Virus record (IMG/VR): IMGVR_UViG_3300008110_000040
Span: 1 to 64,000 of that record
DNA from: a virus
Strand: one strand, 5' to 3'
Length of the DNA stretch: 64,000 bases
Both the position numbers and the translations under genes were made by a program. Positions 34,979-53,808 of this stretch are shown here, piece after piece. Every line of letters begins with the position of its first letter. Position 1 is the first letter of the stretch. The notes under the pieces are model-generated. The model saw only the letters and a program-made list of their open reading frames with translations, searched no databases and was not told the DNA's origin.

Positions 34979-35818
34979 ATGGATTTATCATTAATTAAAC
35001 AGAAGCTTGCCGCTTCTCAAAACAAAGGCAAACCGAAAGAAAAAACTGATTACACGAAAATTTTCTGGAAACCAAAGCCAGGTAAGTACCAAGTACGTAT
35101 TTTACCTTCTAAGTTCGACAAATCTAATCCATTCCGTGAAGTTTACTTCCATTATGGTTTTTCAAGAGGCCCAATTTTAGCATTAGTAAATTGGAATGAA
35201 AAAGATCCTATTGTTGAATTTGCAAAACAATTACGCAAATCCTCAGACAAAGATGATTGGCAATTAGCTAAAAAAGTTGAACCAAAATTACGTTATTTCG
35301 CACCAGTATTAGTACGTGGTGAGGAAGACAAAGGTGCTCGCTTATGGGAATTTGGTAAATTAACTTATGAGCAATTGTTAGGTATTGCTGCTGATGAAGA
35401 CTATGGTGACTACACAGACATCACTGAAGGACGTGATTTCACTATTGAAGCTGTTGAAGATACTGTTGCTGGTAGAAAAAGTGTAAAATGTTCTATCCGT
35501 CCTAAAGTTAAGTCATCACCTATTTCAGAAGATGCTGCTTTAGTACAAAAAGTATTAGACGAACAGCCTGATATTTTAACCGTTAATAAACATCATACAT
35601 TTGAAGAATTACAAGAAATTCTTAACAAGTGGTTAAACCCAGAAGAAACAGCTGAAGAAACTGAAACTCCTGTAGCATCAGCTACTGAAGAAGAGGATGA
35701 AGAAGAAACATCTGATTTACCATGGGAAAAAGGTACATCAACTGCTAGTACCTATAAAGTAGATGCACCTGCAAAAACTAGCAATGCAGATAAATTTGAT
35801 AGTTTATTTAACGACTAA
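34979..35818 (+). CDS. gp32: Single-stranded DNA-binding protein (T4 gp32-like)
   Basis: A 279-residue protein. A basic N-terminus (residues 1-25) is followed by FWKPKPGKYQVRILP, a typical gp32 core opening, then DPIVEFAKQLRK. The core ends near 215 and is followed by an acidic tail with EEEDEEETSDLPWE, ending DKFDSLFND, as in T4 gp32. T4 gp32 binds zinc through three Cys and one His; here the core region has no such Cys, so the zinc site seems lost. It sits directly before uvsX. Confidence 0.85.
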   Translation: MDLSLIKQKLAASQNKGKPKEKTDYTKIFWKPKPGKYQVRILPSKFDKSNPFREVYFHYGFSRGPILALVNWNEKDPIVEFAKQLRKSSDKDDWQLAKKVEPKLRYFAPVLVRGEEDKGARLWEFGKLTYEQLLGIAADEDYGDYTDITEGRDFTIEAVEDTVAGRKSVKCSIRPKVKSSPISEDAALVQKVLDEQPDILTVNKHHTFEELQEILNKWLNPEETAEETETPVASATEEEDEEETSDLPWEKGTSTASTYKVDAPAKTSNADKFDSLFND

Positions 35819-35823
35819 AATAT

Positions 35824-41963: not shown

Positions 41964-42265
41964 AAGAATATATAGATTATTACGTAGAAGGAGATAGGGT
42001 GGTATTTACCGCCCTATTTCATTCAAAACGAGGATTTTGCTGCGGGAATAAATGCAAACATTGTCCTTATATACCAAAATATATTAAAAATACTACTACT
42101 ATGGATATAGAAATGTTAAAAGTCTTAAAAGAACAAGCAGAATTTTTAGAAAAAAATCAAGATAGTCTTCCATCTGCTGAAAAAATAGAGAAAGCTATGG
42201 ATCTATATAACAAGATAAATGAATTAATATCCAATATAGATATTAAAGAAATTGAGCAAGAATAG
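41948..42265 (+). CDS. Cysteine-rich DUF5522-like protein with coiled tail
   Basis: A 105-residue protein, ATG at 41948 overlapping the reductase 3' end by 16 bases. Residues 1-45 carry YYVEGDRVVFTALFHSKRG and FCCGNKCKHCPY, the core of a small Cys-rich family (DUF5522) common in Bacteroidota genomes. Residues ~52-105 are a coiled coil and could be a separate protein from the ATG at 42101. The family is a pointer to host phylum. Confidence 0.6.
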   Translation: MRDSLKEYIDYYVEGDRVVFTALFHSKRGFCCGNKCKHCPYIPKYIKNTTTMDIEMLKVLKEQAEFLEKNQDSLPSAEKIEKAMDLYNKINELISNIDIKEIEQE

Positions 42266-42275
42266 TATATTTTTT

Positions 42276-42284
42276 AATATTTAT
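42276..42284 (+). promoter_or_regulatory. AATATTTAT box
   Basis: A copy of the box 19 bases before the fibre gene at 42304. Confidence 0.5.
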
Positions 42285-42303
42285 TGGTAAATTAAATAAT
42301 AAT

Positions 42304-44838
42304 ATGCCAATAATATATAGGTTAGCTAAAGGATCTCCACTAACTCATGCGGAATTAGATGGAAATTTTCAATTTCTTACTGGATCTATTAATAATATAT
42401 CAGGATCTTATGCAACTACTAGTTCAAACACATTCATTGGTGATCAAGTAATACAAGGTAACTTATCTGTATTTGGTACAGCTTCGTTTACTTATACTAC
42501 TTCATCTATTACAACAATAAGTGCATCAACTTTTGCTGTATCTATATCAAGTCCAGTAATACGTTATGGTTTTTATGAAGTTTTAGATTCAGGAGCATCT
42601 TTATCAACTTCTTCACTTGCTTGGGATTCTGCTAACAAATATTGGGTATATAGAAATGTTACAGGTTCTGCTACTAGTAGTGCTATATTATTAACTGGCC
42701 CTGTAAGTACAGGAGGTTTAGGAACAGAAGTAGCTATTCCACAATATAGAATTCCTATGTCTAATGGGAACCAATCATTAGTAAGTTCTAATATATACAC
42801 TAGTGGTTCTCTTAATATCATAACAGGATCAACACGTATACTTCCATTTGTAGAATCACCAATCCCTACTTTAGGTACAGGTTCAGGTGGTTTCTTTTTA
42901 GGTGGTGATAATGGAGCATATGGTTTATATATGGGTGTATCATCATCAGGTGTTACATGGATCCAATCTAATAGAAATGATGGATTAGCTGATGCTTATA
43001 ACATATCTATACAACCATTAACAGGAAATGTTAATATAGGTAAAATTAATACTTTAAATTTAGGACCCAAATTAGATATATCTGGTAGTACAGTTATAAC
43101 AGGCTCACTAAATGTGACTCAAGGTATCACTAGTTCATTACTAGGCACATCATCATATGCTTCTTTTGCTTTAACAGCATCTCATGCTACTAATGTTCCT
43201 GCAACAGCTTCATATACTTTACAAGCACTGTCGGCATCATTTGCTAATAACAGCACATCTGCCTCATTTGCTACTAATAGTGTATCGGCTTCATTAGCAA
43301 CCAACAGTATATCGGCATCATTTGCTACTAATAGTACATCTGCATCATTTGCTATAAGTGCTTCACAAGCGGTATCAGCGTCTCGTGCTATAAGTTCTTC
43401 ATTCTCCTCTAATTCATTATTATTAAATAACATGGCCTCATCTGTATTTGCAACTACAGGTTCAAATACTTTTAGAGGTACTCAAAATATAACTGGGAGT
43501 GTTAATATTACTGGTTCATTAGTTGTATCTGGTTCTTCTACTTTAGTAAATATAGGTTTAGCTGAAATGACGGGTTCATTATTAATGAACACATTAGATG
43601 GTAGAAGATTATTTAGAGCTAGCTCTTCATTATCATCTTCAATCAGTAGCTCAAATGAATTAACAACAGCTAGTTTTAATGGAGTTATATCTTTAAATTC
43701 AAACTCAGGTGGAAATGTGTGGGATTCTAATTTTAATATTTATTACTCAGGTATTTCGGGAAGTAATGAAACTCAAGTTAGTCCTGTTTATACTGCTTCG
43801 TTTGATGGTAATGGATATAATAATTTCAGTATTGTAGTTAATTCTAGACCTCAGATAATTTTATCCCCAAGTGGTAGTATACAATCTTATAAAGTATACA
43901 TTTATAATTCAGGTAGTACCGGCACAGGATGGTATGTCCAATCAGGCTTATCTGGGGATACTTTACAAAATGGAATAGATATATTATTATCAGGTCATAC
44001 AAATAATAGTTTTGGAAATGATTTAATAAATGCAGGTTTTATTTCAGGAGTATCGGATCCAACAGGTAACACTAATACTGTAACTTATGTTTCTCAATCA
44101 TTATTAACGTTTACCTCTTCATTAGTTGAAATAAACGCTCCAACTATTACAATGACTGGTTCAATCATTGTAAGTGGTTCTAAAACATTAACTGGTACTA
44201 TTAATAGTAATGGAACATTTGCTCAAACAGGTTCATTTATAGTAAGTGGATCAGCTACCTTTAATAACACAACATTCACAGTAACTGGTTCTCAATTCTT
44301 TACTGGTTCGTCAGTATCTGTTGGTAATCAAACAATAACAGGTTCATTAAGTTTAACTAGTAATGGAATCGGAACAGGATTATATATTAATGGTCAAAAA
44401 CAATTTAACTATATATCTCTTCTTCATACAGCAAGTATATTACCTACACAAAACGTGTCCGGTTCATTTATATATAGTACTACAGGATCTTCTAGTGGTA
44501 TATCTTTAGTTAGTGGTAGTAGAATAACATTTGCTAACACAGGTATATATAATATACAATTCTCAGCTCAAGTATTTACAGCAACTGGAGCAACAGTAGA
44601 TATATGGTTTAAACGAAATGGTACTAATATAGCTTTTTCGGGTACAAAAATAGGTCCAACCTCTAATAATCAGTATGTTGTAGCAGCATGGAATTTTGTA
44701 GATACATTTACTTCAGGTTCATATGTTGAAATTGCTTATCAAACAGATCAAACAAATACTCAATTCCAATATATAGCAGCAACAGGTAATGTACCAGCAA
44801 TTCCATCAATAATAGCAACAGTTACACAAGTAGCTTAA
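42304..44838 (+). CDS. Tail fibre with ASFATNS repeats and C1q-like tip
   Basis: An 844-residue fibre. The N-terminus has LTHAELDGNFQFL, a motif found at the start of many phage fibres and shared with the gene at 60497. Residues ~290-370 hold about ten repeats of the type SASFATNSTSASFA. The C-terminal ~130 residues (SLVSGSRITFANTGIYNIQFSAQV ... IWFKRNGTNIA) look like a C1q/TNF jelly roll, a plausible receptor-binding tip. It is separate from the main fibre block, between nucleotide and DNA-modification genes. Confidence 0.7.
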   Translation: MPIIYRLAKGSPLTHAELDGNFQFLTGSINNISGSYATTSSNTFIGDQVIQGNLSVFGTASFTYTTSSITTISASTFAVSISSPVIRYGFYEVLDSGASLSTSSLAWDSANKYWVYRNVTGSATSSAILLTGPVSTGGLGTEVAIPQYRIPMSNGNQSLVSSNIYTSGSLNIITGSTRILPFVESPIPTLGTGSGGFFLGGDNGAYGLYMGVSSSGVTWIQSNRNDGLADAYNISIQPLTGNVNIGKINTLNLGPKLDISGSTVITGSLNVTQGITSSLLGTSSYASFALTASHATNVPATASYTLQALSASFANNSTSASFATNSVSASLATNSISASFATNSTSASFAISASQAVSASRAISSSFSSNSLLLNNMASSVFATTGSNTFRGTQNITGSVNITGSLVVSGSSTLVNIGLAEMTGSLLMNTLDGRRLFRASSSLSSSISSSNELTTASFNGVISLNSNSGGNVWDSNFNIYYSGISGSNETQVSPVYTASFDGNGYNNFSIVVNSRPQIILSPSGSIQSYKVYIYNSGSTGTGWYVQSGLSGDTLQNGIDILLSGHTNNSFGNDLINAGFISGVSDPTGNTNTVTYVSQSLLTFTSSLVEINAPTITMTGSIIVSGSKTLTGTINSNGTFAQTGSFIVSGSATFNNTTFTVTGSQFFTGSSVSVGNQTITGSLSLTSNGIGTGLYINGQKQFNYISLLHTASILPTQNVSGSFIYSTTGSSSGISLVSGSRITFANTGIYNIQFSAQVFTATGATVDIWFKRNGTNIAFSGTKIGPTSNNQYVVAAWNFVDTFTSGSYVEIAYQTDQTNTQFQYIAATGNVPAIPSIIATVTQVA

Positions 44839-45984: not shown

Positions 45985-46057
45985 GGGGTTGTAGCAAAGA
46001 TGGACTATGCGCCGGTCTGAAAAACCGGAGATATTGGATCGTTACCAGTCAGCCTCA
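45985..46057 (+). tRNA. tRNA-Phe(GAA)
   Basis: Acceptor GGGGTTG with CAGCCTC (two G-U pairs), anticodon arm CCGGT-CTGAAAA-ACCGG, T arm ATTGG-ATCGTTA-CCAGT. The T loop departs from TTCRANN at its first base. Complete cloverleaf. Confidence 0.75.
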
Positions 46058-46064
46058 CAAATAC

Positions 46065-46140
46065 GCAAGTGTAGTGACCAATGGTTTTAACACGTCCGGC
46101 TCCAACCCGGAAAATGTGGGTTCGAATCCTACCACTTGTG
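46065..46140 (+). tRNA. tRNA-Trp(CCA)
   Basis: Acceptor GCAAGTG with CACTTGT, anticodon arm TCCGG-CTCCAAC-CCGGA, T loop TTCGAAT. Complete. Confidence 0.9.
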
Positions 46141-46147
46141 CAAAAAA

Positions 46148-46198
46148 ATCGTTATAAGGCATATGCTAGTAATGCCAGCAGGTTAAGCGATATCCTGC
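46148..46198 (+). other. Two-hairpin linker RNA
   Basis: Two adjacent stems, GGCAT / ATGCC and GCAGG / CCTGC, between tRNA-Trp and tRNA-Asn. No known family. Could be a processing spacer. Confidence 0.3.
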
Positions 46199-46204
46199 AA
46201 ATAA

Positions 46205-46277
46205 TGTGATGTAGCTCAGAGGCAGAGCAGGGAGCTGTTAACTCCAAGGTCGGTGATTTCGAAATTCCCCATCACAG
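46205..46277 (+). tRNA. tRNA-Asn(GTT)
   Basis: Acceptor TGTGATG / CATCACA is perfect; anticodon loop CTGTTAA. The T arm pairs poorly (GGTGA against TTCCC), so the gene may be partly degraded. Confidence 0.7.
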
Positions 46278-46330
46278 CCGGTTTGGGTTTTATACTTTTA
46301 GACTTACAAGATAAGGAAAAAGTAATTACT

Positions 46331-46401
46331 GGGGTAGTGGCCAGGGTAGCTCACAACGACTGTAAATCGTAGGTGCGAAAGTTCGATTCTTTCCTGCCCC
46401 A
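46331..46401 (+). tRNA. tRNA-Tyr(GTA)
   Basis: Acceptor GGGGTAG / CTGCCCC, anticodon loop CTGTAAA in stem ACGA/TCGT, T arm GAAAG-TTCGATT-CTTTC. Short variable region for a Tyr tRNA. Confidence 0.85.
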
Positions 46402-46489
46402 CAAAAATAAAAAAGATGAAACGAAAACTATAACAGTGCATGAGTATCAAGGATATAAGTGCACAAATTAAGATTAAAATTTAATTTAT

Positions 46490-46564
46490 GCGCTTGTAGC
46501 TTAATTTGGTAGATGCACTCGGCTTTTAACCGAGGGGTTGGGGGTTCAAGTCCCTCCAGGCGCA
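46490..46564 (+). tRNA. tRNA-Lys(TTT), copy 1
   Basis: Acceptor GCGCTTG / CAGGCGC, anticodon arm CTCGG-CTTTTAA-CCGAG, T loop TTCAAGT. Complete. Confidence 0.92.
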
Positions 46565-46572
46565 CAGAGTTT

Positions 46573-46646
46573 GACTCTGTAGCTCAATTGGTTAGAGCAC
46601 CTCACTTTTAATGAGGGGGTTATGAGTTCGAGTCTCATCAGGGTCA
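46573..46646 (+). tRNA. tRNA-Lys(TTT), copy 2
   Basis: Acceptor GACTCTG / CAGGGTC, anticodon arm CCTCA-CTTTTAA-TGAGG, T loop TTCGAGT. Second Lys gene with a different body. Confidence 0.92.
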
Positions 46647-46651
46647 CAAAT

Positions 46652-46915
46652 ATGAATATAACAGGCATGACTTTAGACGGTAAGATTACTGTTGGAAATA
46701 TAGGTAAATTCTATTTTCAAAAAGGAATACCATTAAATATAATATTTGATTGTTTAATTAAAAAAGATATAGTAGTTGATTGGATTTCATTAAAAGATGA
46801 GTTAATAAACAACGGAATGTCTTTAAATAGAATTAAACATTTATTGAGTGAAAATATTAATGACTCATACGGTAAACAATATCGCGATGATATCATTAGT
46901 AGATTAGGTCTTTGA
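46652..46915 (+). CDS. Hypothetical protein inside tRNA cluster
   Basis: An 87-residue protein, MNITGMTLDGKITVGNIGK..., starting six bases after tRNA-Lys copy 2. An earlier non-ATG start would lie inside that tRNA and is rejected. It has a mixed alpha/beta look and ends YRDDIISRLGL. Probably co-transcribed with tRNAs. No family recognised. Confidence 0.55.
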   Translation: MNITGMTLDGKITVGNIGKFYFQKGIPLNIIFDCLIKKDIVVDWISLKDELINNGMSLNRIKHLLSENINDSYGKQYRDDIISRLGL

Positions 46916-46932
46916 CATATTGTAAATTATTT

Positions 46933-47008
46933 GGTCTCGTGGTCTAATGGCTCAGGATACATGACTGTCTATCATGGGGTGAGGGTTCGATTCCCTTCGG
47001 GACCGCCA
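46933..47008 (+). tRNA. tRNA-Asp(GTC)
   Basis: Acceptor GGTCTCG / CGGGACC, anticodon loop CTGTCTA, T loop TTCGATT, encoded GCCA end. Confidence 0.92.
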
Positions 47009-47099
47009 AATTAACTGCAATGAGAAATACGGGTTCGAAGCCCGGGTGGCGGGTGTAAACACGCGCTACCTGAAGCTAAGTTGCGATAGCCAGTTAATT
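47009..47099 (+). ncRNA. Inside-out tRNA-like RNA (Y-RNA-like or permuted tRNA)
   Basis: The ends pair in a perfect 9-bp helix (AATTAACTG / CAGTTAATT). Inside, the order is T arm (CGGG-TTCGAAG-CCCG, 47030-47044), then acceptor 3' strand GGTGGCG, capping loop, acceptor 5' strand CGCTACC (47064-47070), then a D-arm-like GCT...AGC. This is a tRNA body opened at the anticodon arm and closed at the acceptor. It lacks the TAGYAAY / TACTTCG stem of the other family members. YrlA-type Y RNAs have this topology. Confidence 0.55.
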
Positions 47100-47105
47100 A
47101 AACAT

Positions 47106-47178
47106 AGCGTAATAGCCTAATGGTTGAGGCACTTGCTTTGGGAGCAAGACGATGTCGGTTCGAGCCCGGCTTACGCTA
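47106..47178 (+). tRNA. tRNA-Pro(TGG)
   Basis: Acceptor AGCGTAA / TTACGCT, anticodon loop TTTGGGA, T loop TTCGAGC. Complete. Confidence 0.9.
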
Positions 47179-47183
47179 CACAT

Positions 47184-47300
47184 GGGGGAGAATGCAAAAC
47201 AAAACACTGTTCAAGCATTCTCTCGAAAGAGTAGTAATAGAATAGTTACTTCGCAATCAAACTGTAAATTTGACGACTTGCCGTAAGGCCTCCCCCACCA
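47184..47300 (+). ncRNA. tRNA-Tyr-like RNA with Y-type stem inserted in D loop
   Basis: Acceptor GGGGGAG pairs CTCCCCC followed by ACCA. The anticodon arm TCAAA-CTGTAAA-TTTGA gives GTA. The T arm is replaced by a short GCC-GTAA-GGC hairpin. Between the two halves of the D arm (TGC / GCA) lies the family stem: ACTGTTC (47206-47212) pairs GAATAGT (47240-47246), then CTCTCGAAAGAG closes the distal helix, with conserved TAGTAAT and TACTTCG. Here the stem is a closed internal hairpin and the acceptor is free. Confidence 0.55.
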
Positions 47301-47301
47301 T

Positions 47302-47373
47302 GCAGATATAGCACAATGGTTAGTGCTTCGGCTTGCCAAGCCGAAGATACGAGTTCGAGTCTCGTTATCTGCT
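47302..47373 (+). tRNA. tRNA-Gly(GCC)
   Basis: Acceptor GCAGATA / TATCTGC, anticodon arm TCGGC-TTGCCAA-GCCGA, T loop TTCGAGT. Complete. Confidence 0.92.
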
Positions 47374-47380
47374 CTAATAA

Positions 47381-47456
47381 GCGTGTATGGTGTTTCAATG
47401 GCTTAGCATGCTGCACTTCCAATGCAGAGGTTTCAGTTCGAATCTGAATACGCGCT
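47381..47456 (+). tRNA. tRNA-Gly(TCC)
   Basis: Acceptor GCGTGTA / TACGCGC, anticodon arm CTGCA-CTTCCAA-TGCAG, T arm TTCAG-TTCGAAT-CTGAA. Complete. Confidence 0.9.
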
Positions 47457-47464
47457 CGCTTTTA

Positions 47465-47575
47465 TGAATAAGTTAGCAGCATAAACAATTGACGGAATGC
47501 TGTAAGTCTTAACGACTTTGGAGATGCGAAGTATAGTAACGTCTCCTAAATTTTTTAGGAGGTTCCTGCCTAGTA
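47465..47575 (+). ncRNA. Unassigned structured RNA
   Basis: Four local stems in a row: CAGCAT / ATGCTG, AAGTC / GACTT, GGAGA / TCTCC (enclosing TATAGTAAC, similar to the family strand TAGTAAC) and CTCCTAAA / TTTAGGAG. No T loop. It may be a divergent member of the Y-like family ending in a terminator-like hairpin. Confidence 0.35.
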
Positions 47576-47595
47576 TTAATACTGAAGTGGGCCAT

Positions 47596-47668
47596 GGGCT
47601 GTTGGTATAGTTGGCTAACACGATAGCTTTGCAAGCTATAGTCCCCGGTTCAAGCCCGGGACGGTCCA
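47596..47668 (+). tRNA. tRNA-Ala(TGC)
   Basis: Acceptor GGGCTGT / ACGGTCC, anticodon loop TTTGCAA, T loop TTCAAGC. Complete. Confidence 0.9.
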
Positions 47669-47670
47669 CA

Positions 47671-47735
47671 AAATTGTAGGTGTCAGATAACCTTCAGGTT
47701 TGAGTCGCAGTTGTACCTTAAACAGCTGACAATTT
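47671..47735 (+). ncRNA. Unassigned hairpin RNA
   Basis: Ends pair (AAATTGT / ACAATTT, or TGTCAG / CTGACA); inside is AACC-TTCA-GGTT. It lies directly before tRNA-Met. No family recognised. Confidence 0.3.
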
Positions 47736-47809
47736 GCCGAGTTGGTAGAGTAGGTTTCTTACGGGGCTCTCATAAGGCTCAGACAACAGTTCAAATCTGT
47801 TACTCGGTA
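47736..47809 (+). tRNA. tRNA-Met(CAT), copy 1
   Basis: Acceptor GCCGAGT / ACTCGGT, anticodon loop CTCATAA, T arm AACAG-TTCAAAT-CTGTT. One of three CAT tRNAs; could be Met, initiator Met or Ile (lysidine type). Confidence 0.85.
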
Positions 47810-47819
47810 CAAAATATAT

Positions 47820-47898
47820 TGTGGGAGGGTGAAACGGATATATAAATCATTCTGGGCTCATAACCCAGAGATAGCTGGTTCGACTCCAGCGCCCGCAA
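47820..47898 (+). tRNA. tRNA-Met(CAT), copy 2
   Basis: Anticodon arm CTGGG-CTCATAA-CCCAG, T arm GCTGG-TTCGACT-CCAGC, acceptor TGTGGGA / GCCCGCA with one mismatch at the inner end. D arm is long and irregular. Confidence 0.75.
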
Positions 47899-47900
47899 CA

Positions 47901-48059
47901 AAAACAGTAGTAACGTGAAAGTTACTTCGAATGCATAGGGAGCACGTACATTGGTGGTTCGAATCCATCCCTCCCAACCAATAAAATAATAATATTGGGA
48001 GGTGGCGAAATTGGTAGACGCACGTAAAGAAAAAACACTTTTACAATTTTCTCTGTTTT
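47901..48059 (+). ncRNA. Y-like RNA with inside-out tRNA-Leu-like body
   Basis: Outer helix AAAACAG (47901-47907) / CTGTTTT (48053-48059). Conserved TAGTAAC, then GTGAAAGT (47915-47922) / ACTTTTAC (48037-48044), then TACTTCG. The body has T arm GGTGG-TTCGAAT-CCATC, acceptor CCTCCCA plus ACCA (47970-47980), a 15-base linker, acceptor TGGGAGG (47996-48002), and a Leu-type D arm GGCGAAATTGGTAGACGC. The acceptor pairs perfectly. Order is reversed relative to a normal tRNA; an anticodon is not resolved. Confidence 0.65.
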
Positions 48060-48063
48060 ATAT

Positions 48064-48135
48064 TCTCGGGTCGTCTAGCGGCAGGATAGGGTGCTTTGAA
48101 CACTCTGACAGTTGGTTCGAATCCACTCCCGAGAA
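48064..48135 (+). tRNA. tRNA-Gln(TTG)
   Basis: Acceptor TCTCGGG / CCCGAGA, anticodon arm GGGTG-CTTTGAA-CACTC, T loop TTCGAAT. Confidence 0.9.
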
Positions 48136-48142
48136 CAAAAAA

Positions 48143-48173
48143 TTTGATTGGCAAAATAAAGTTATTATCTTTA
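48143..48173 (+). promoter_or_regulatory. Bacteroidota-type promoter, near-consensus
   Basis: TTTG (48143-48146), 19-base spacer, TATCTTTA (48166-48173). The ATG begins five bases after the -7 box, so the mRNA should be leaderless or nearly so. Confidence 0.7.
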
Positions 48174-48177
48174 CAAC

Positions 48178-48432
48178 ATGAAAGAATTAGTAATACGATA
48201 TTTCAGAGGTCAAGCACTTAACATAGATGAGTGTGTTAAATTAATGGAGGAATATATGAAAAAAACAAATAAAGATAATCCTACGTTAATACAAAAATTG
48301 ATAGATCCTATGAATCCATTTGGGCCATCAATGTTACAACAAGCAGTAGATGTATCTGCTCGCTCGTTGGCTGAAGATTTTGATATTACTAGATTATATT
48401 CGAAAGAAGGTAATTTATTAATGGTATATTAA
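48178..48432 (+). CDS. Hypothetical protein with own promoter
   Basis: An 84-residue protein (MKELVIRYFRGQALNIDECV...). It has a near-consensus Bacteroidota-type promoter right before the ATG, the clearest early-type unit inside the RNA island. Helical, amphipathic; ends with LYSKEGNLLMVY. No family recognised. Could be an early host-interaction protein. Confidence 0.6.
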   Translation: MKELVIRYFRGQALNIDECVKLMEEYMKKTNKDNPTLIQKLIDPMNPFGPSMLQQAVDVSARSLAEDFDITRLYSKEGNLLMVY

Positions 48433-48437
48433 AATAA

Positions 48438-48514
48438 GGGCCTTTAACTCAGTTGGTTAGAGTAACTGACTCATAATCAGTAAGCCACAGGTTCAAGCCC
48501 TGTAAGGCCCACCA
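48438..48514 (+). tRNA. tRNA-Met(CAT), copy 3
   Basis: Acceptor GGGCCTT / AAGGCCC, anticodon arm ACTGA-CTCATAA-TCAGT, encoded ACCA end. Confidence 0.9.
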
Positions 48515-48519
48515 AATAT

Positions 48520-48591
48520 GGTCCCGTCGTCTAATGGTTAGGATGTCACCCTTTCACGGTGAAGATTTCGGTTCGAATCCGTGCGGGACTA
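48520..48591 (+). tRNA. tRNA-Glu(TTC)
   Basis: Acceptor GGTCCCG / CGGGACT, anticodon loop CTTTCAC, T loop TTCGAAT. Confidence 0.92.
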
Positions 48592-48596
48592 CAATT

Positions 48597-48669
48597 GCTG
48601 ATATGGTCGATTGGTTTAGGCACTAACCTGATACGTTAGTCTAGGTAGGTTCGATTCCTGCTATCAGCA
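48597..48669 (+). tRNA. tRNA-Ile(GAT)
   Basis: Acceptor GCTGATA / TATCAGC, anticodon loop CTGATAC, T loop TTCGATT. Confidence 0.92.
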
Positions 48670-48671
48670 CA

Positions 48672-48717
48672 AAGTCCAAGAGTAATTAACTTGGTACCTG
48701 AGAGGTTCGAAACTCTC
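48672..48717 (+). other. T-arm-like hairpin remnant
   Basis: CCAAG / CTTGG hairpin, then a T-arm-like GAGAG...CTCTC hairpin with GTTCGAAA loop. No acceptor or anticodon arm. Looks like a tRNA fragment or a small unassigned RNA. Confidence 0.3.
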
Positions 48718-48720
48718 GAT

Positions 48721-48831
48721 TGACTATGGTGTATAGGTGTGCACAGAGGAACGTAGTAAGAGGCACTGTCGAAAGACGATACAATCTCTGAACTGAGACT
48801 CAGGATTAAGGTTCAAACCCTTTTTAGTCAG
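48721..48831 (+). ncRNA. Class II tRNA-like RNA with Y-type stem in place of anticodon arm
   Basis: Acceptor TGACTA / TAGTCA, D arm GTG...CAC, variable arm CTGA-GAC-TCAG and T arm AAGG-TTCAAAC-CCTT are in normal order. Where the anticodon arm should be is a longer stem: CAGAG / CTCTG (48744-48748 / 48786-48790), an internal loop with TAGTAAG and ACAAT, and a TGTC-GAAA-GACG tip. Long variable arm suggests Leu or Ser origin. Resembles YrlA, where the Ro-binding stem takes the anticodon-arm place. Confidence 0.5.
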
Positions 48832-48834
48832 CAA

Positions 48835-48942
48835 AGATAGAAGTAAGTGGCACCTGTTGCAGGCAACATAAAGTAAGATCCACAACTTGGCTGGTCGTCA
48901 CTTCTTATAACATAATAATGTGGGTGTTATAAGCTATCTTTA
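48835..48942 (+). ncRNA. Unassigned structured RNA closed by 7-bp helix
   Basis: AAGATAG and CTATCTT close a region with stems TGTTGC / GCAACA and TTATAACA / TGTTATAA. No tRNA features. Unknown. Confidence 0.4.
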
Positions 48943-48944
48943 AT

Positions 48945-49016
48945 GCTCGGTTAGTTTAATAGGTAAAACTACTGATTTGTAATCAGAGAACATCGGTTCG
49001 ATTCCGGTACTGAGCT
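48945..49016 (+). tRNA. tRNA-Thr(TGT)
   Basis: Acceptor GCTCGGT / ACTGAGC, anticodon loop TTTGTAA, T loop TTCGATT. Confidence 0.92.
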
Positions 49017-49023
49017 CAAAAAT

Positions 49024-49099
49024 GGTCGCTTCGCTTAGCTGGTTTTAAAGCGCTTGATTTACATTCAAGAGATCATAGGTTCGAATCCTATAGCGACTA
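49024..49099 (+). tRNA. tRNA-Val(TAC)
   Basis: Acceptor GGTCGCT / AGCGACT, anticodon arm CTTGA-TTTACAT-TCAAG, T loop TTCGAAT. Confidence 0.9.
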
Positions 49100-49106
49100 C
49101 AAAAAC

Positions 49107-49198
49107 GGAGGGTTGAGAGAGATGGATGATTCTGCTAGTCTTGAAAACTAGATGTCGCGTAAATCCGGGGCACGTGGGTTCGAATCCCACACCCTCTT
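49107..49198 (+). tRNA. tRNA-Ser(TGA)
   Basis: 92 bases, acceptor GGAGGGT / ACCCTCT, anticodon loop CTTGAAA, long variable arm, T loop TTCGAAT. Confidence 0.9.
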
Positions 49199-49213
49199 CA
49201 AATAAAAAACATA

Positions 49214-49417
49214 ATGGAAAGAATACCACAACATATAATCGACCAAATGCGTCAATCACTGTTAGGTAAACGAGTACGATACAGGGATATAGTAGGTGAA
49301 TGTAAATACTTCGGTTATAACGAATATTTACCTAAGTGGGGACTGCAAATAACTTTAGATAGAATGCCTTTATCTAATGTTGATATAAAGCACATATTTA
49401 TAGTAGATGAGCTATGA
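49214..49417 (+). CDS. Small hypothetical protein
   Basis: A 67-residue protein (MERIPQHIIDQMRQSLLGKRV...). It has a compact alpha/beta look with KRVRYRDIVGECKYFGYNEYLPKWGL. It overlaps the next gene by 11 bases, suggesting coupled translation. Located between tRNA-Ser and tRNA-Cys. No family recognised. Confidence 0.55.
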   Translation: MERIPQHIIDQMRQSLLGKRVRYRDIVGECKYFGYNEYLPKWGLQITLDRMPLSNVDIKHIFIVDEL

Positions 49418-49601
49418 ATTAATCTTTATACTGTACGCAGTAATAATAATCTCTATTCCAGTAATATTGCTGGCTATAGTAGTATTATATGAACTTCTTG
49501 AGAGTACCTACCATATAACTGAAATGATATTTCCAGTACATCACACTGCGGTTAGATGGATATTATTGTTAATAATTTTTATATTGTTTTTTATTTTATA
49601 A
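49407..49601 (+). CDS. Small membrane protein, two transmembrane segments
   Basis: A 64-residue protein with two hydrophobic segments (residues ~4-28 and ~49-64) and a short loop with STYHITEMIFPVHHTAVR. Size and layout fit a holin, an antiholin or a superinfection-exclusion protein, but no lysis gene is adjacent. It ends right before tRNA-Cys. Function uncertain. Confidence 0.5.
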   Translation: MSYELIFILYAVIIISIPVILLAIVVLYELLESTYHITEMIFPVHHTAVRWILLLIIFILFFIL

Positions 49602-49673
49602 GGGCGATTGTCTGACTGGCTGAGGTGGCCGCCTGCAAAGCGGCTTAAATAGGTTCGATTCCTATATCGCCCT
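49602..49673 (+). tRNA. tRNA-Cys(GCA)
   Basis: Acceptor GGGCGAT / ATCGCCC, anticodon loop CTGCAAA, T loop TTCGATT. Confidence 0.92.
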
Positions 49674-49708
49674 CACTTAAATGAACGTAAAGAGTAATTT
49701 GTTTATAA

Positions 49709-49777
49709 GATGTAAGGTAAACAAATGAACATAAACCTTTATTAGTAAGCATTACTAGTGTGTGTACTTACATCTCT
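49709..49777 (+). other. Hairpin-rich spacer before tRNA-Ser
   Basis: AGATGTAAG pairs CTTACATCT (9 bp) around a region with AGTAAGCATTACT. No known family. It may shape processing of the next tRNA. Confidence 0.35.
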
Positions 49778-49779
49778 AT

Positions 49780-49866
49780 GGAGAGTAAAGCAACCAGGGT
49801 GTTGTCACCGCCTGCTAAGCGAGTGGTACTTTCGGGTATGAATTTCGAATATTCTGCTCTCCGCCA
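49780..49866 (+). tRNA. tRNA-Ser(GCT)
   Basis: Acceptor GGAGAGT / GCTCTCC with encoded GCCA, anticodon loop CTGCTAA, long variable arm, T loop TTCGAAT. The T stem is weak. Confidence 0.8.
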
Positions 49867-49951
49867 AAGTAAGTTTGGAAAGGCAAAGTCCAAAGCTTAT
49901 ATTTAAATCATAATAAAAAGAAATGTCAAATAATTAATTTGTACCAAGTTT

Positions 49952-51577
49952 ATGTCAAAATTTAGAAATGCGTCATTAGCTTCTAAAGTAGGAGCAATGA
50001 AACCAAAAGACAATTTAGTAGCAGCAGCATCAATTCCTGCTCCTGATACTAAGAACATTCAAGGTAAAGAAGCTTATTCACAAGATAAGTGGGTTAAATT
50101 ACTAACAATGTTAAATACATTGAAATTGGAAAACCAATTTTACCGTTCAGAGTCTAAGACTATGACCGAATTGAGATCGTTAATGATAGAATGTGCTCAA
50201 GCAGATCCTTATTTTACAGCACAATGTATTGTTTACTCTCGTTGTGTGGGTGAAGGTATGAGATCAATTAATCACTTAGCAGCTGTTTATTTAGCTCCCT
50301 ATTTAGGTGGTTTAGATTGGGGTAAGCGTTTCTATGGATTATGGAATAAAAAAGAAGCTAAAGGTGGAACTATATATCGCCCAGATGATATCGCTGAAAT
50401 CGTTGCTGCATATAGTGCATTAAACGAAAAAGGTATTACTAACGCGATGAAGAAAGGTTTCAAATCGGCTTTAGAAAACATGGATGCGTATAGTTTGTTA
50501 AAATACAAACCAGCCTTACTTGATATTATCAATTTAGTTCACCCAAATCCAAATGTTTCAAAAGCAGTGGTTGATTATGAAGGTAAAAAAGTATCTGTAT
50601 TTGAAGCTATTATGAAAGGATACAACGTATCAGCTGATACTTGGGAAGTAGCTCAATCAGACGCTGGTCAAATTGTAGCAAAAGCTGTTAAAGAAGGTAA
50701 GTTATCTAAAGAAGATGCTGCTGAAGTATTAGCTGAAGCAAAATCTGATAACTGGGAAGCTTTATTAGTAGATGGTAAATTAGGTATTTTAGCTGCTTTA
50801 AGAAATATTAGAAATATTTTATTAGCTAAACCAAAAGAAACTACAGTTGACATGTTATGTAAATTGTTATCTGATGGAGTGGCTATTAGAAAAGGTAAAG
50901 TAATGCCTTACCAAATTGATATGGCTAATGAAGTTGTAAACGCAGAATTTAGCGATGCTAATTCTCGTAAGATTTCAAAAGCATTATTAGCTGGATATGA
51001 ATTAGCATTACCTAACTTAGCTGAATTGCTAACAGGTGATACTTTAGTAATGGTTGACTTTTCAGGTTCAATGACTACATATGTTAAAGATCCAAAACGT
51101 AAAACAAATTACAAGTCAACTTGTATGGATAAAGCAGCTCTAATTGCAGCTACAATTGCAAAAGCTACAAACGGAGATATAATTCGTTTCGGTTCAAGTG
51201 CTGAATATGTAAATTATAATGCTAATTTAGATGTGTTTTCACTTGCTAACTCTATCAAAAAAGATATGGGTGGAACAAGTTTAGCACAAGCATGGGCTGC
51301 AGCTCAAAAATCAGGTAGAAAATACACACGTGTGTTTATCTTATCTGATAATGAATGTAATATAGGTTCAACTTATAAAGCATACCAATCATATGTTGAA
51401 AAAACAGGTGATCCATATGTTTATTCAGTTGACTTAGCAGCATATGGTACAACTGCTATAGCAGGTCCAAAAGTAAGATTTTACTACGGATTCGGTTATA
51501 CAATGTTTGATGATATCGCAACAAGCGAATTCAATGCAAACTACCATATTGAAAAGGTTAAAAAGATTGTTATCTAA
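49952..51577 (+). CDS. Ro60 (TROVE + vWA) RNA-binding protein
   Basis: A 541-residue protein, the length of animal and bacterial Ro60 (about 530-540). Residues ~30-340 form the TROVE HEAT-like ring (MTELRSLMIECAQADPYFTAQCIVYSR is typical). Residues ~360-530 form a vWA domain with MIDAS DFSGSM (about 369-374), GGTSLAQAW and FILSDNE. Ro60 binds Y RNAs and misfolded RNAs and can gate RNase access. It sits within the tRNA island, followed at once by RNAs that look like its Y-RNA partners. Confidence 0.9.
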   Translation: MSKFRNASLASKVGAMKPKDNLVAAASIPAPDTKNIQGKEAYSQDKWVKLLTMLNTLKLENQFYRSESKTMTELRSLMIECAQADPYFTAQCIVYSRCVGEGMRSINHLAAVYLAPYLGGLDWGKRFYGLWNKKEAKGGTIYRPDDIAEIVAAYSALNEKGITNAMKKGFKSALENMDAYSLLKYKPALLDIINLVHPNPNVSKAVVDYEGKKVSVFEAIMKGYNVSADTWEVAQSDAGQIVAKAVKEGKLSKEDAAEVLAEAKSDNWEALLVDGKLGILAALRNIRNILLAKPKETTVDMLCKLLSDGVAIRKGKVMPYQIDMANEVVNAEFSDANSRKISKALLAGYELALPNLAELLTGDTLVMVDFSGSMTTYVKDPKRKTNYKSTCMDKAALIAATIAKATNGDIIRFGSSAEYVNYNANLDVFSLANSIKKDMGGTSLAQAWAAAQKSGRKYTRVFILSDNECNIGSTYKAYQSYVEKTGDPYVYSVDLAAYGTTAIAGPKVRFYYGFGYTMFDDIATSEFNANYHIEKVKKIVI

Positions 51578-51609
51578 GCTTTGAAAGACAAGATAAAAAT
51601 CGTATATTT

Positions 51610-51701
51610 AAATATAAGTTAGATAGCAAGATAGTGGGTTACTTCGTTTTATTTGAAAAACTCCAACTATACTCACGTCAATTAACTTCTAGCTTATATT
51701 T
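51610..51701 (+). ncRNA. Y-like RNA, short body
   Basis: Begins 33 bases after the Ro60 gene. Outer helix of 13 bp (51610-51622 with 51689-51701, one G-U). Conserved TAGCAAG, inner helix GTGGGT (51634-51639) / ACTCAC (51671-51676), TACTTCG. The body is only 24 bases, with an anticodon-arm-like TTTTATTTGAAAAA hairpin and no T arm. The clearest simple Y-RNA shape of the set. Confidence 0.65.
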
Positions 51702-51726
51702 AATTTGTTCTTTGAATTAATGAATT

Positions 51727-51848
51727 TGGGTAGCAATGTAAAAGTTACTTCGTAGTGCAATGGTAGCACAATTTTATTTCCAAAAATCAGTTATGGGTTC
51801 GATTCCCATCGAGGCCGAAAGGCTTAACACTTTTACAATTTTCTCCCA
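51727..51848 (+). ncRNA. Y-like RNA with tRNA-Glu-like body
   Basis: Inner helix TGTAAAAGT (51737-51745) / ACTTTTACA (51829-51837), nine perfect pairs; short outer helix TGGG / CCCA; conserved TAGCAAT and TACTTCG. The body has D arm GTGC / GCAC, anticodon arm ATTTT-ATTTCCA-AAAAT (TTC), T arm ATGGG-TTCGATT-CCCAT. The acceptor is CGAGGCC, a GAAA tetraloop, then GGCTT, completed by CG at 51751-51752: seven pairs if the ends are joined. So it is opened in the acceptor and capped by a tetraloop. C37 is unusual for a working tRNA. Confidence 0.65.
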
Positions 51849-51857
51849 TATAATACT

Positions 51858-52001
51858 AGTAAGATAGCAATGTTGTAAGTTACTTCGTATATTGGTTCGA
51901 CTCCAATATTTTCCGCCAACAATTGGAAAATTAGCTAAATGGATAAAGCAAAACTCTTATAAAGTTTGATAAAACACACTTACTCAAATAATCTTCTTAC
52001 T
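51858..52001 (+). ncRNA. Y-like RNA with inside-out tRNA-Ile-like body
   Basis: Outer helix AGTAAGA (51858-51864) / TCTTACT (51995-52001); TAGCAAT; inner helix GTAAGT (51875-51880) / ACTTAC (51978-51983); TACTTCG. Body order: T arm ATTGG-TTCGACT-CCAAT, acceptor ATTTTCC, GCCA, linker, acceptor GGAAAAT (perfect 7 bp), D arm GCT / AGC, anticodon arm AAACT-CTTATAA-AGTTT (TAT). It is opened in the variable loop. A full tRNA could form if the ends were joined. Confidence 0.7.
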
Positions 52002-52010
52002 TAAAATATT

Positions 52011-52257
52011 ATCTAGTAGTAATTAATCAGTTACTTCGAAACAAAAATGCTATCATAGATAGCATATAACACGTAAATTATATTAATATATAATTTCTAC
52101 CATCAAATCGGTAACAGCTGGTATCTATTGCCGAGTCGAAAGACTTAGTAACTACCCCAGGTTTTAATAGTACCTTGCCAAAAAATATTACGTTTGTTGC
52201 GTTAAGACATGAGGTACAGCTTATATCTGATACACCTGATTAAAGTAAACTCTAGAT
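52011..52257 (+). ncRNA. Y-like RNA with large (~200 nt) body
   Basis: Outer helix ATCTAG (52011-52016) / CTAGAT (52252-52257); TAGTAAT; inner helix TAATCAG (52024-52030) / CTGATTA (52236-52242); TACTTCG. The body is not tRNA-like: stems ATGCTATC / GATAGCAT, AAATTATAT / ATATAATTT, GAGTC-GAAA-GACTT and GTACC / GGTAC. It shows that the same Y-type stem carries different cargo domains. Confidence 0.6.
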
Positions 52258-52266
52258 TAAAAATAT

Positions 52267-52401
52267 TATATTAGTAGTAATAGGTAATCGTTACTTCGAA
52301 AATTAGCTCAGCTGGTTGAGCGTTTGTATGTGGAACAAAAGGTCGTTGGTTCAACTCCAACATTTTCAATCAAATACACGATCCTAACTTTCTCTAATAT
52401 A
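52267..52401 (+). ncRNA. Y-like RNA with tRNA-His-like body
   Basis: Outer helix TATATTAG (52267-52274) / CTAATATA (52394-52401); TAGTAAT; inner helix ATCGT (52287-52291) / ACGAT (52378-52382); TACTTCG. The body is in normal order: acceptor GAAAAT / ATTTTC, D arm GCTC / GAGC, anticodon arm TTTGT-ATGTGGA-ACAAA (GTG), T arm GTTGG-TTCAACT-CCAAC. The stem is attached at the acceptor ends. A standard tRNA-His is encoded separately at 53731. It ends one base before tRNA-Leu. Confidence 0.6.
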
Positions 52402-52402
52402 T

Positions 52403-52486
52403 GCTCCGATGGCGGAATAGGTAGACGCGTGGGACTTAAAATCCCATCCCCGCAAGGGGGTACAGGTTCGATTCCTGTTCGGAGCA
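52403..52486 (+). tRNA. tRNA-Leu(TAA)
   Basis: Acceptor GCTCCGA / TCGGAGC, anticodon loop CTTAAAA, variable arm CCCC-GCAA-GGGG, T loop TTCGATT. Confidence 0.93.
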
Positions 52487-52488
52487 CA

Positions 52489-52605
52489 ATGAGGAAGAGA
52501 TGCTCATCAGTCTTTGGACCAAGTCTTTAATAATGGTCTCGTTCGATCCGGACAGCGGAATGCCGGTTATAGAGGATGAAAAGGATGTGGACACACTCCT
52601 CTCTA
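52489..52605 (+). ncRNA. Unassigned structured RNA
   Basis: Stems GATG / CATC, GACCA / TGGTC, CCGG / CCGG and AGAGGA / TCCTCT, with a TTCGATCC segment that resembles a T loop. No complete tRNA can be drawn. The remaining 106 bases to tRNA-Leu(TAG) show only weak inverted repeats. Confidence 0.35.
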
Positions 52606-52711
52606 TTAATGTTGATTTATATTTTTATGTGGTAAGACACTAATGTGTTTGTTTTCAAGAAAACTAAACCGTTAAAATCTACTCATCTGGAATCTCAGGA
52701 TGGGGTAATTT

Positions 52712-52784
52712 GCCCTGGTGGCGGAAAGGCAGACGCGCTGGTCTTAGGAACCAGTTTTTGAGAGTTCGAATCTCTCCCGGGGTA
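52712..52784 (+). tRNA. tRNA-Leu(TAG)
   Basis: Acceptor GCCCTGG / CCGGGGT, anticodon loop CTTAGGA, T loop TTCGAAT. Short variable region for Leu. Confidence 0.85.
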
Positions 52785-52786
52785 CA

Positions 52787-52986
52787 AATAAACAAGAGAA
52801 CTCATCGCTGGTAACAGAGGAAGTTCGCGACATCACAGCTTAAGGCAGGAGTATGAACAACATATGTTAGTACTGCCGAGGATGCAACTCAAAACAGCCT
52901 AGACGGTGAGCTGGTCTATAATGGCAAGGTTGGAGGCAAAGATAAATGATGAGATAAAACAGAATCGCGGCTAAGCTCAGTTTATT
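52787..52986 (+). ncRNA. rnpB: RNase P RNA, very short form
   Basis: P1 is AATAAAC / GTTTATT (52787-52793 / 52980-52986). The universal core is present: GAGGAAGTTCGCG (52817-52829) and ACAGAATCGCGGCTAA (52959-52974), forming P4 with the conserved bulged U (AG-U-UCGCG / CGCGG-CU). Upstream of the 3' strand is AGATAAATGA, like the bacterial J18/2 element (AGATGAATGA). At about 200 bases it is far shorter than bacterial RNase P RNAs (330-400), so peripheral domains are mostly lost. It lies among the phage tRNAs it would process. Confidence 0.8.
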
Positions 52987-52996
52987 AAGTTCTTTG

Positions 52997-53200
52997 AACA
53001 ACTACTGATTGACACTAAACAGTAATTATGCAGACCACGTTAAAAAAAGCGATTTTGTGGAGGCGTAAATGATAATTACCTCACAGTCTAAGATGTGAGT
53101 GGTTTAGGTTGATGTAATGATTTGAGAAAATATACTGCCCACAGATAGTAAATATGTGGTTTCAATGTTTAATTATCCTACTTAGAAGGCAGTAGTTGTT
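52997..53200 (+). ncRNA. Unassigned 204-nt structured RNA
   Basis: A perfect 11-bp helix closes it (AACAACTACTG / CAGTAGTTGTT). Inside are GTAATTAT / ATAATTAC, CTAAAC / GTTTAG, CTCACA / TGTGAG, CCAC / GTGG and CCACA / TGTGG. It is not tmRNA, SRP RNA or 6S RNA by any motif I know. It follows the RNase P RNA by 10 bases. Confidence 0.55.
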
Positions 53201-53206
53201 TAATTT

Positions 53207-53279
53207 GGTCCTATGGTGTAATGGATTAGCACCAACGCCTTCTAAGCGTTTAGTATAGGTTCGAATCCTATTAGGACTA
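53207..53279 (+). tRNA. tRNA-Arg(TCT)
   Basis: Acceptor GGTCCTA / TAGGACT, anticodon loop CTTCTAA, T loop TTCGAAT. Confidence 0.92.
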
Positions 53280-53282
53280 CGA

Positions 53283-53352
53283 TTGGAGGTATAGGGGTAA
53301 CCCCTTGAGGCGAAGTACAAGCCATGGTCACTGAATGTAAACCAACCTCTAA
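53283..53352 (+). ncRNA. Cloverleaf-shaped RNA without tRNA sequence marks
   Basis: An 8-bp end helix (TTGGAGGT / ACCTCTAA, one wobble) encloses three hairpins: GGGG-TAA-CCCC, GGC / GCC and TGGT / ACCA. The size (70 nt) and shape mimic a tRNA, yet T-loop, D-loop and anticodon signatures are absent. Confidence 0.4.
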
Positions 53353-53360
53353 ACGAATTT

Positions 53361-53447
53361 AGTCAGGTGGCGCAATTGGTATGACGCTGAGCGTATTTCC
53401 GAAACGGAGGGTAAAATGATGTGCAGGTTCGAATCCTGTCCTGACTA
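53361..53447 (+). tRNA. Class II tRNA-like gene, anticodon unclear
   Basis: Acceptor AGTCAGG / CCTGACT and T arm CAGG-TTCGAAT-CCTG are good; D arm GCG / CGC is of Leu/Ser type. The expected anticodon arm pairs poorly; the loop could be TTCCGAA (CCG, Arg). A long variable part follows. Could be a decayed or unusual tRNA. Confidence 0.55.
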
Positions 53448-53448
53448 C

Positions 53449-53650
53449 AAGCCGTCTTTTTTTCTTGTCTACCGTGGATGTGGATTGTTGAGACGTAAAA
53501 AATAATAATCGATTGATGAGGAAACGGCAGGATACAGGTTCACTATACGAAGGTAGAAGTTTTTTTCAGAGTGCTGGGTTTGAGTCTTAATAATAACAAA
53601 CCAACTAGATGATTAGGGACATATGAGAGCTGCTTACTCTCGTCCCAAAC
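53449..53650 (+). other. Structured region of unknown function
   Basis: Contains GCCGT / ACGGC, TCTACC / GGTAGA, GGTTTG / CAAACC and a GGGAC / GTCCC stem with inner GAGAG-CTGCTTA-CTCTC, plus two T7 runs. No gene and no complete tRNA. It may hold one or two further non-coding RNAs. Confidence 0.4.
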
Positions 53651-53651
53651 T

Positions 53652-53723
53652 GCTCCTGTAGGCTAATGGATAAACCTTTGCGCTACGGACGCAAGATTCC
53701 TCGTTCGAGTCGAGGCAGGAGCA
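53652..53723 (+). tRNA. tRNA-Arg(ACG)
   Basis: Acceptor GCTCCTG / CAGGAGC, anticodon loop CTACGGA, T loop TTCGAGT. A34 would need host TadA to make inosine. Confidence 0.9.
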
Positions 53724-53730
53724 CAAACAT

Positions 53731-53808
53731 GGTGTCTATGTTGTTAATGGTTTAGCATACATGCTTGTGGCGCATGAGGTAACAGTTCGAATCTGTTTAG
53801 ACACACCA
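53731..53808 (+). tRNA. tRNA-His(GTG)
   Basis: Extra G at -1, acceptor GTGTCTA / TAGACAC, anticodon arm CATGC-TTGTGGC-GCATG, T loop TTCGAAT, encoded ACCA end. Confidence 0.92.

Follow-up and report, generated by a model that had tools for sequence, protein, structure and literature searches.

Next to a predicted Ro60 gene, region 51578-52402 of a 64,000-nucleotide stretch of viral DNA (positions 1 to 64,000 of IMG/VR record IMGVR_UViG_3300008110_000040; the whole stretch is hereafter called the window, and the record has 171,732 bases) carries five consecutive RNA-like elements that share one stem and enclose different bodies, several of them tRNA-like; a sixth lies upstream, within the tRNA array of the virus. 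An earlier examination of the letters alone (hereafter the sequence-only reading) had proposed an expanded set of Y RNAs with interchangeable tRNA-like bodies, tied to Ro60, and this proposal was supported by covariation, by covariance-model searches and by co-occurrence with Ro60 genes. It had further suggested, tentatively, that the set might govern tRNA modification, aminoacylation, tRNA-cutting defences or RNA decay. As for function, we put at about even the chances that the elements are phage-encoded Y RNAs whose heads mimic whole tRNAs, and through which a Ro60 particle holds or redirects tRNA-handling enzymes. The gene and the elements, numbered here as putative Y RNAs, are as follows.

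49952..51577, + strand: predicted Ro60 gene (TROVE and vWA parts, 541 amino acids)
51610..51701, + strand: putative Y RNA 1, in which the stem encloses a short hairpin
51723..51852, + strand: putative Y RNA 2, normal-order tRNA body with anticodon TTC, the Y stem standing in place of the acceptor stem
51857..52002, + strand: putative Y RNA 3, with a permuted tRNA body attached via its variable loop
52011..52257, + strand: putative Y RNA 4, in which the stem encloses about 200 nucleotides (nt) of structured body that is not tRNA-like
52267..52402, + strand: putative Y RNA 5, with a complete tRNA-like body (normal order, anticodon GTG) that meets the stem at its acceptor end
47900..48060, + strand: putative Y RNA 6, situated upstream of the others in the tRNA array; its body is permuted and Leu-like, and its acceptor loop contains CCA

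The elements are recognized by the 5' motif TAGYRA-n-TACTTCG, which occurred exactly seven times in the whole record, always on the + strand and always within the tRNA array, versus no occurrence on the reverse strand and none of a reversed-pattern control. Six of the copies belong to the six elements above. In the shared stem an outer helix with an unpaired T is followed by AG/CT, an internal loop, an inner helix and TACTTCG. One correction to the sequence-only reading concerns its TAG: the A and G pair with the CT of a 3' TTCT, while the preceding T was invariant and unpaired in both alignments described below. In some phages TAG/TTCT is replaced jointly by TGG/TTCC.

Covariation was evaluated with RNAalifold. 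For 18 normal-order elements, the window being excluded, 29 pairs were predicted and both sides had changed in 24 of them; 14 elements joined at the variable loop gave 34 pairs, 28 of them changed on both sides, so that the helices covary in homologues as had been claimed. The window element was omitted from both alignments, A3 and A4, and A3 also lacks L278:13395, because its 3' arm had been parsed wrongly (L numbers designate the loci compared). Complementarity and the linker served to pick the 3' ends of these elements, and because of the former the pair counts of the outer and inner helices lean towards a stem; pairs within the body arms are independent of this choice.

Two covariance models, R1 and R2, were made from the two alignments, and a very similar phage, L280, was in the training sets of both. 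With R2, which consists of 14 elements from other phages, the five best matches in the window were all full length, namely Y RNA 3 (51857-52002, 128.6 bits), Y RNA 6 (47900-48060, 51.1 bits), Y RNA 1 (51616-51695, 39.5 bits), Y RNA 2 (51723-51852, 36.1 bits) and Y RNA 5 (52267-52401, 35.8 bits); the best plain tRNA reached 27.8 bits, below all five. R1 found the same five at full length, at 136.9 bits for Y RNA 5 (52267-52401; E 3.2e-27, the window not being in the training set), 77.9 bits for Y RNA 2, 45.1 bits for Y RNA 6, 30.0 bits for Y RNA 1 and 29.9 bits. Since R1 contains a normal tRNA body, plain tRNAs scored up to 43.1 bits with it, so that only three of the five elements exceed them; the tRNA stretch 48917-49046 was also matched at full length (36.3 bits). 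Models built without the window placed the element limits within six bases of those first proposed. Y RNA 4 was matched by neither model, and its membership is indicated by its stem, which beat 20 of 20 shuffles, and by its fold (z -3.79). The six-element family is therefore considered real, five members being the top five of R2 in the window.

The 3' arms were also examined in the window and related contigs together, where 99 places were found and 94 distinct elements retained after exclusion of own-genome copies and L003, a few of the 94 probably being due to chance. The stem beat all 20 shuffles of the element's own downstream sequence in 45 of the 94, and lost to at most one in 59. When each 5' arm was paired with the downstream sequence of every element, limited to 200 nt, the own downstream sequence ranked first for 30 of 94 (about one expected) and within the top 5% for 53. 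For the window, 47923 and 51640 ranked first, 51881 second, and 51746 and 52292 third; 52032 (Y RNA 4) was weak, 85 others scoring as high, because of the 200-nt limit. For 47247, 59 other elements scored as high. This last position belongs to the seventh motif copy:

47232..47253, + strand: seventh copy of the 5' motif, with no ordinary 3' arm (11 of 20 shuffles score equally well)

This copy sits in a stretch, 47183-47295, closed by TGGGGGA/TCCCCCA. An inverted Y stem capped by a CGAA loop may be present at 47232, but its fit score of 11 is no better than those of other, apparently spurious fits (9-12).

The seventh copy and a piece of Y RNA 3 (51925-51998), which scores 28.9 bits as a tRNA against a cut-off of 29, are what could be expected if the family consisted of decaying tRNA pseudogenes flanked by chance inverted repeats. 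Against this, pairs have changed on both sides, the motif is conserved (seven copies versus none in the control), the linkage to Ro60 extends over many phages, and with a model trained on other phages five window elements come out on top. Pseudogenes are largely refuted by this ranking and we regard them as extremely improbable.

The predicted product of 49952-51577 is, judging by sequence, a Ro60-type protein with a TROVE and a vWA part. Its Pfam matches lie under the curated cut-offs (TROVE, E 7.1e-5, 22.6 bits, cut-off 23; vWA_Ro60, E 7.5e-4, 19.9 bits, cut-off 27.7), and a profile of nine phage relatives matched solved TROVE/Ro60 chains (9kop, E 7.8e-54, covering profile positions 14-484 of 495; 1yvp, E 3.2e-28; 2nvo, E 1.4e-18). 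DxSxS, which we take to be a pattern of the vWA part, is conserved in nine of nine phage relatives. One contig (L116, G108) carries two Ro60-like genes, at 34592-36172 and 41968-43245.

Co-occurrence with Ro60, suggested as a check by the sequence-only reading, was pronounced: a Ro60 match was found in 43 of 50 contigs with the RNA pattern versus 7 of 50 tRNA-bearing controls (Fisher p 2e-13), and three of the seven control matches were weak (about 1e-7). The 50 pattern contigs were drawn from 80 listed loci and had at least 30 kb; plain tRNAs (recognized by eye), L039 (unclear), L064 and L072 (near-duplicates), L052 (its contig serving as control L027) and L088 (to keep the number at 50) were excluded, and L090-L128 were not used. 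Controls comprised 38 of 80 listed tRNA-bearing loci, 7 of 13 loci of a base-swapped pattern (every contig having 30 kb or more) and five plain-tRNA loci from the RNA-pattern search; control L027 is not clean because it lies on the same contig as the Y-like L052. The first RNA pattern itself matched at least 119 stretches, versus 13 for its base-swapped control. Among 105 element-bearing loci, 67 had Ro60 in the slice examined, and in these there were 165 motif places at a median distance of 397 nt, of which 150 lay within 3 kb of Ro60 and 161 on its strand; a few of the places are plainly due to chance, such as one within the Ro60 gene of L001. In the window, the distance from a motif copy to Ro60 ranges from 66 nt to about 2.7 kb.

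Similar arrangements were seen in named phages. In Caulobacter phage CcrPW (L134), about seven consecutive Y-RNA-like elements, counted by eye, precede Ro60 at 13660-14860, and because this phage combines a named laboratory host with an array beside Ro60, the question becomes testable there. The annotated tRNA-Tyr and tRNA-Lys of csAssE-Sib (L132, OR575929.1; 19625 and 19771) are each enclosed by a Y stem immediately preceding Ro60. They are probably bodies of Y RNAs, so some annotated phage tRNAs are probably not tRNAs. In crAss001 (L131), a noncoding gap after Ro60 (5810-6716) holds motif variants of the form TTACTTCAA; R1 gave 36.1 bits for 6391-6510 and 28.5 bits for 5906-5991, and plain tRNAs score as high.

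Four of the bodies were reported at first as Glu-, Ile-, His- and Leu-like tRNAs. They are indeed tRNA-like, but the order of their parts had to be corrected: 51858-52001 and 47901-48059 are circularly permuted, while 51727-51848 and 52267-52401 have the normal order. The window thus holds one hairpin body, two normal-order, two permuted and one of 200 nt. In Y RNA 3 the order is T arm, acceptor, GCCA, linker, acceptor, D arm and an anticodon arm with TAT; this arm, AAACT/CTTATAA/AGTTT, is paired at five of five positions and stands 3' of the D arm. The amino acid labels should not be taken literally, as anticodons drift between related elements, for instance from GTG (His) in the window to GCT (Ser) in the very similar element of L280.

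Among all loci, several types of body were distinguished. Twenty elements have normal order with their own acceptor stem; their anticodon-stem cells, taken at a fixed offset from the T arm, are paired in 98 of 100 cases (shuffles gave 53.8 on average and 75 at most), with 13 different stems and 11 different anticodons. Positions 2-7 of the acceptor stem are paired in 114 of 120 cells, and the 1:72 pair is broken in 15 of the 20. A second normal-order form, in which the Y stem replaces the acceptor stem, comprises window element 51723-51852 and others. Permuted bodies numbered 116 by a simple rule, of which 93 could be parsed and 23 could not; the parse required a looped acceptor, which is therefore looped in all 93 by construction. 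A perfect anticodon arm follows the D arm in 15 of the 93, which places the Y stem in the variable loop, and precedes the T arm in 30, with a stem mostly using the TTCG of the motif. U33 was present in 58 and a purine at position 37 in 60 of 62 bodies from three groups (20, 15 and 27) with varying anticodons, the 42 permuted loops among them having been selected for perfect stems. At least three elements are present in 32 loci, in several of which body classes, assigned by rough rules, recur in a similar order; in L112 this order is Ro60, acceptor-less, unassigned, variable-loop and normal-order.

The acceptor ends, in the parsed bodies as encoded, are closed or bound in the stem, which suggests tRNA mimics rather than working tRNAs. 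It could be argued that the stems are processing cassettes freeing working tRNAs from the array: the elements lie among tRNA genes, Y RNA 5 abuts a tRNA-Leu gene, and ARAGORN called the bodies at 51745 (Y RNA 2) and 52296 (Y RNA 5) tRNA-Glu and tRNA-His. Such a function is very unlikely. We know of no ordinary processing by which permuted bodies would yield a linear tRNA; anticodon identity is not conserved between related elements nor among the 20 normal-order bodies, which argues against functional tRNAs; two of these 20 have the anticodon TCA, in addition to the 15 with a mispaired 1:72; and an ordinary tRNA-Glu (48520, ARAGORN) and a His-type tRNA (53733-53803) are already present in the array. 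The idea that the body of Y RNA 5 is the sole His tRNA was ruled out by the latter gene.

Structurally kept anticodon arms with changing anticodons would also fit a role as decoys: host enzymes that cleave tRNA at or close to the anticodon loop would be offered a canonical loop on an expendable molecule, and an arms race would diversify the anticodons. Hughes et al. 2020 (PMC7790460) raise the idea that the tRNA-like domain of YrlA might competitively inhibit an anticodon nuclease; fragments of YrlA were not observed with the nuclease that the paper examines. Decoys would need neither Ro60 nor a conserved set of classes, and the hairpin and 200-nt bodies do not fit. We hold this explanation to be rather doubtful.

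The reading that we prefer, that of Y RNAs with tRNA-mimic heads acting through Ro60, would operate as follows. The common stem would dock on the ring of the phage Ro60, and the body would serve as a swappable head. Most recognizable tRNA heads would be whole-tRNA mimics that keep the T arm, the D arm and often a canonical anticodon arm. As encoded, however, their acceptor end is closed into a loop, absorbed into the stem, or runs on into it with a frequent mispair at 1:72. With such acceptor ends, the heads should be recognizable to enzymes that handle tRNAs, yet should neither be charged nor serve the ribosome. During infection the Ro60 particle would then most likely hold or redirect such enzymes, among them modification enzymes, RNase P, tRNA-cutting enzymes or a host exonuclease (PNPase, for instance), each conserved body class serving a different partner. 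We infer the transcription of the elements, their binding to Ro60, their unchargeability, the effectors and the class-specific partners. A bolder version, rather less likely than not, would make Ro60 a programmable display particle of complete but unchargeable tRNA mimics, grafted onto the one stem at the acceptor end, between the D and anticodon arms or at the variable loop, each class capturing a different enzyme or blocking a different anticodon-cutting defence. If the RNAs do bind Ro60, the reason why phages possess this protein may lie in the heads, which are swappable and can be tested singly.

Neither an RNase_PH (PNPase) gene nor an RtcB gene was found in the searched record, which may be a fragment; a PNPase partner would thus need to come from the host or from a missing part. 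This bears on a tether or gate of the Deinococcus type, by which Ro60 would be tied to the PNPase of the host for structured-RNA decay and the kind of body would be secondary. The bacterial Y RNA mechanism described in PMC8394870 and PMC8058203 and the missing PNPase gene speak for it, but it leaves unexplained why one phage has several tRNA-like classes and why anticodon arms are paired, and we judge it unlikely.

Several observations weigh against our reading. Since two window elements, Y RNA 1 (51610-51701) and Y RNA 4 (52011-52257), lack a tRNA body, tRNA mimicry explains the set only in part. Of the parsed permuted bodies, 48 of 93 have no perfect anticodon arm at either place tested. Conservation of the T arm, and of the D arm in the normal-order set, is no evidence, because these arms belonged to the defining pattern. 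Processing may yet free the acceptor end of normal-order bodies. Four minimum-energy folds compared with shuffles gave z values of -4.68 (Y RNA 1), -1.96, -0.33 and -2.21, and some single-sequence folds were no better than shuffles (51852-51998, z -0.33; L002:11374-11506, z -0.02; L002:11527-11661, z -0.54); as minimum-energy folds are not uniformly convincing, the case rests on covariation and linkage. As to linkage, 7 of the 50 pattern contigs, which may be fragments, have no Ro60 match. The co-occurrence of the normal-order pattern with Ro60 in 21 of 24 contigs speaks for the reading, but these contigs are not all independent, some being near-duplicates or already in the first-pattern set, and its base-swapped control (Ro60 in none of four) is weak because the contigs have only 4-15 kb. 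In bacterial genome assemblies, Ro60 was in the slice for 9 of 34 stretches with the normal-order pattern, and three of the nine bear a Saprospiraceae label. Normal-order elements of the acceptor-less form thus also occur outside contigs filed as viral, and an infection-specific role does not follow.

The elements are embedded in a tRNA array that spans positions 45985-53803 of the window (ARAGORN and Rfam). It seemingly covers nearly all amino acids, with 25 ARAGORN genes, two of which are Y RNA bodies, and further tRNAs matched by Rfam only, such as the His-type at 53733. Other features near the elements are listed below.

53733-53803: His-type tRNA, Rfam match, anticodon GTG read by eye
52403..52487, + strand: tRNA-Leu (TAA), called by ARAGORN, beginning immediately after Y RNA 5
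51580..51612, + strand: promoter-like 33-nt repeat, immediately 5' of the first element

Because Y RNA 5 abuts tRNA-Leu, cleavage of the tRNA leader by RNase P could set its 3' end. Copies of the 33-nt repeat were found in the record at 67867, 109241 and 55999 (31, 29 and 27 identical bases of 33), each followed, as read, by an ATG within about 50 nt; weaker copies lie at 34932 (24/33) and at 49875 (25/33), the latter just upstream of the Ro60 gene. Long stretches between tRNAs (48672-48940 and 49680-49950) contain, by eye, tRNA-like pieces such as a Ser-like GCT region, without gene calls. A likely phage-encoded RNase P RNA lies at 52796-52978 (RNaseP_arch, 35.6 bits, below the cut-off of 84), where GAGGAAGUUC and ACAGAAUCGCGGCUAA resemble the conserved core. 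A second such copy was seen in the Y-RNA phage L112 (8613-8790, 31.8 bits), with GAGGAA and ACAGAA retained, and RNase P-like RNA was present in 2 of 22 records searched. No DNA similar to 51578-52402 was found among named phages.

Among known systems, the closest likeness is to YrlA (Rfam RF02553; 6CU1), which has an end-to-end stem and circularly permuted T arm, acceptor and D arm. Structure 6CU1 is described as a circular permutation of tRNA in PMC11472068. According to PMC7790460, YrlA is encoded near Ro60, as are our elements; PMC8394870 adds that DusA and TruB both act on it and that its arms are the D, T and acceptor arms. In the window, only bodies 51857-52002 and 47900-48060 have a YrlA-like permuted order. 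RF02553 gave 19.2 bits for a window element and 35.7 and 35.5 bits in L019, against a family cut-off of 69, and nothing above that cut-off in the virus record. At gathering score, Rfam reported for 17 loci only tRNAs, tmRNAs and a permuted tmRNA, and no YrlA, among the best 150 of 180 matches (down to 48.3 bits). An Rfam YrlA match at 46536-46598 was rejected as a Y RNA, being the T arm of one tRNA-Lys beside the D arm of the next. Unlike YrlA, whose Rfam structure line has no anticodon arm, many of the phage bodies have one; their points of attachment also include the variable loop and, for normal-order bodies, the acceptor end, and several classes occur per phage.

The idea of a Ro60-binding stem with an effector-binding head is common to the Deinococcus Y RNA and to RYPER, the particle of Ro60, Y RNA and PNPase (PMC8394870 and PMC8058203); here, in contrast, the heads are multiple, many would be tRNA mimics in other arrangements, and the record is without a PNPase gene. 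Ro60 and Y RNAs also share an operon in Salmonella, rsr-yrlBA-rtcBA (PMC7790460), whereas the present set has more and different bodies and no RtcB in its record. The elements lie in a phage tRNA array, but look like mimics: as encoded, their acceptor ends form loops or are tied up in the stem, and their anticodons drift. Phage Ro60 and phage Y RNAs have already been mentioned in print (PMC7824862 and PMC7765460), and the reason why phages carry Ro60 is not explained in, for example, the accessible text of PMC7824862. Within the literature searched, consisting of partial texts and excluding the primary papers on bacterial Y RNAs, neither normal-order Y RNAs nor multiple classes of body were found described. 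Provisionally, what appears to be new compared with these systems is the way in which the tRNA body joins the stem, either through the variable loop or, where its parts keep the normal order, through the acceptor end.
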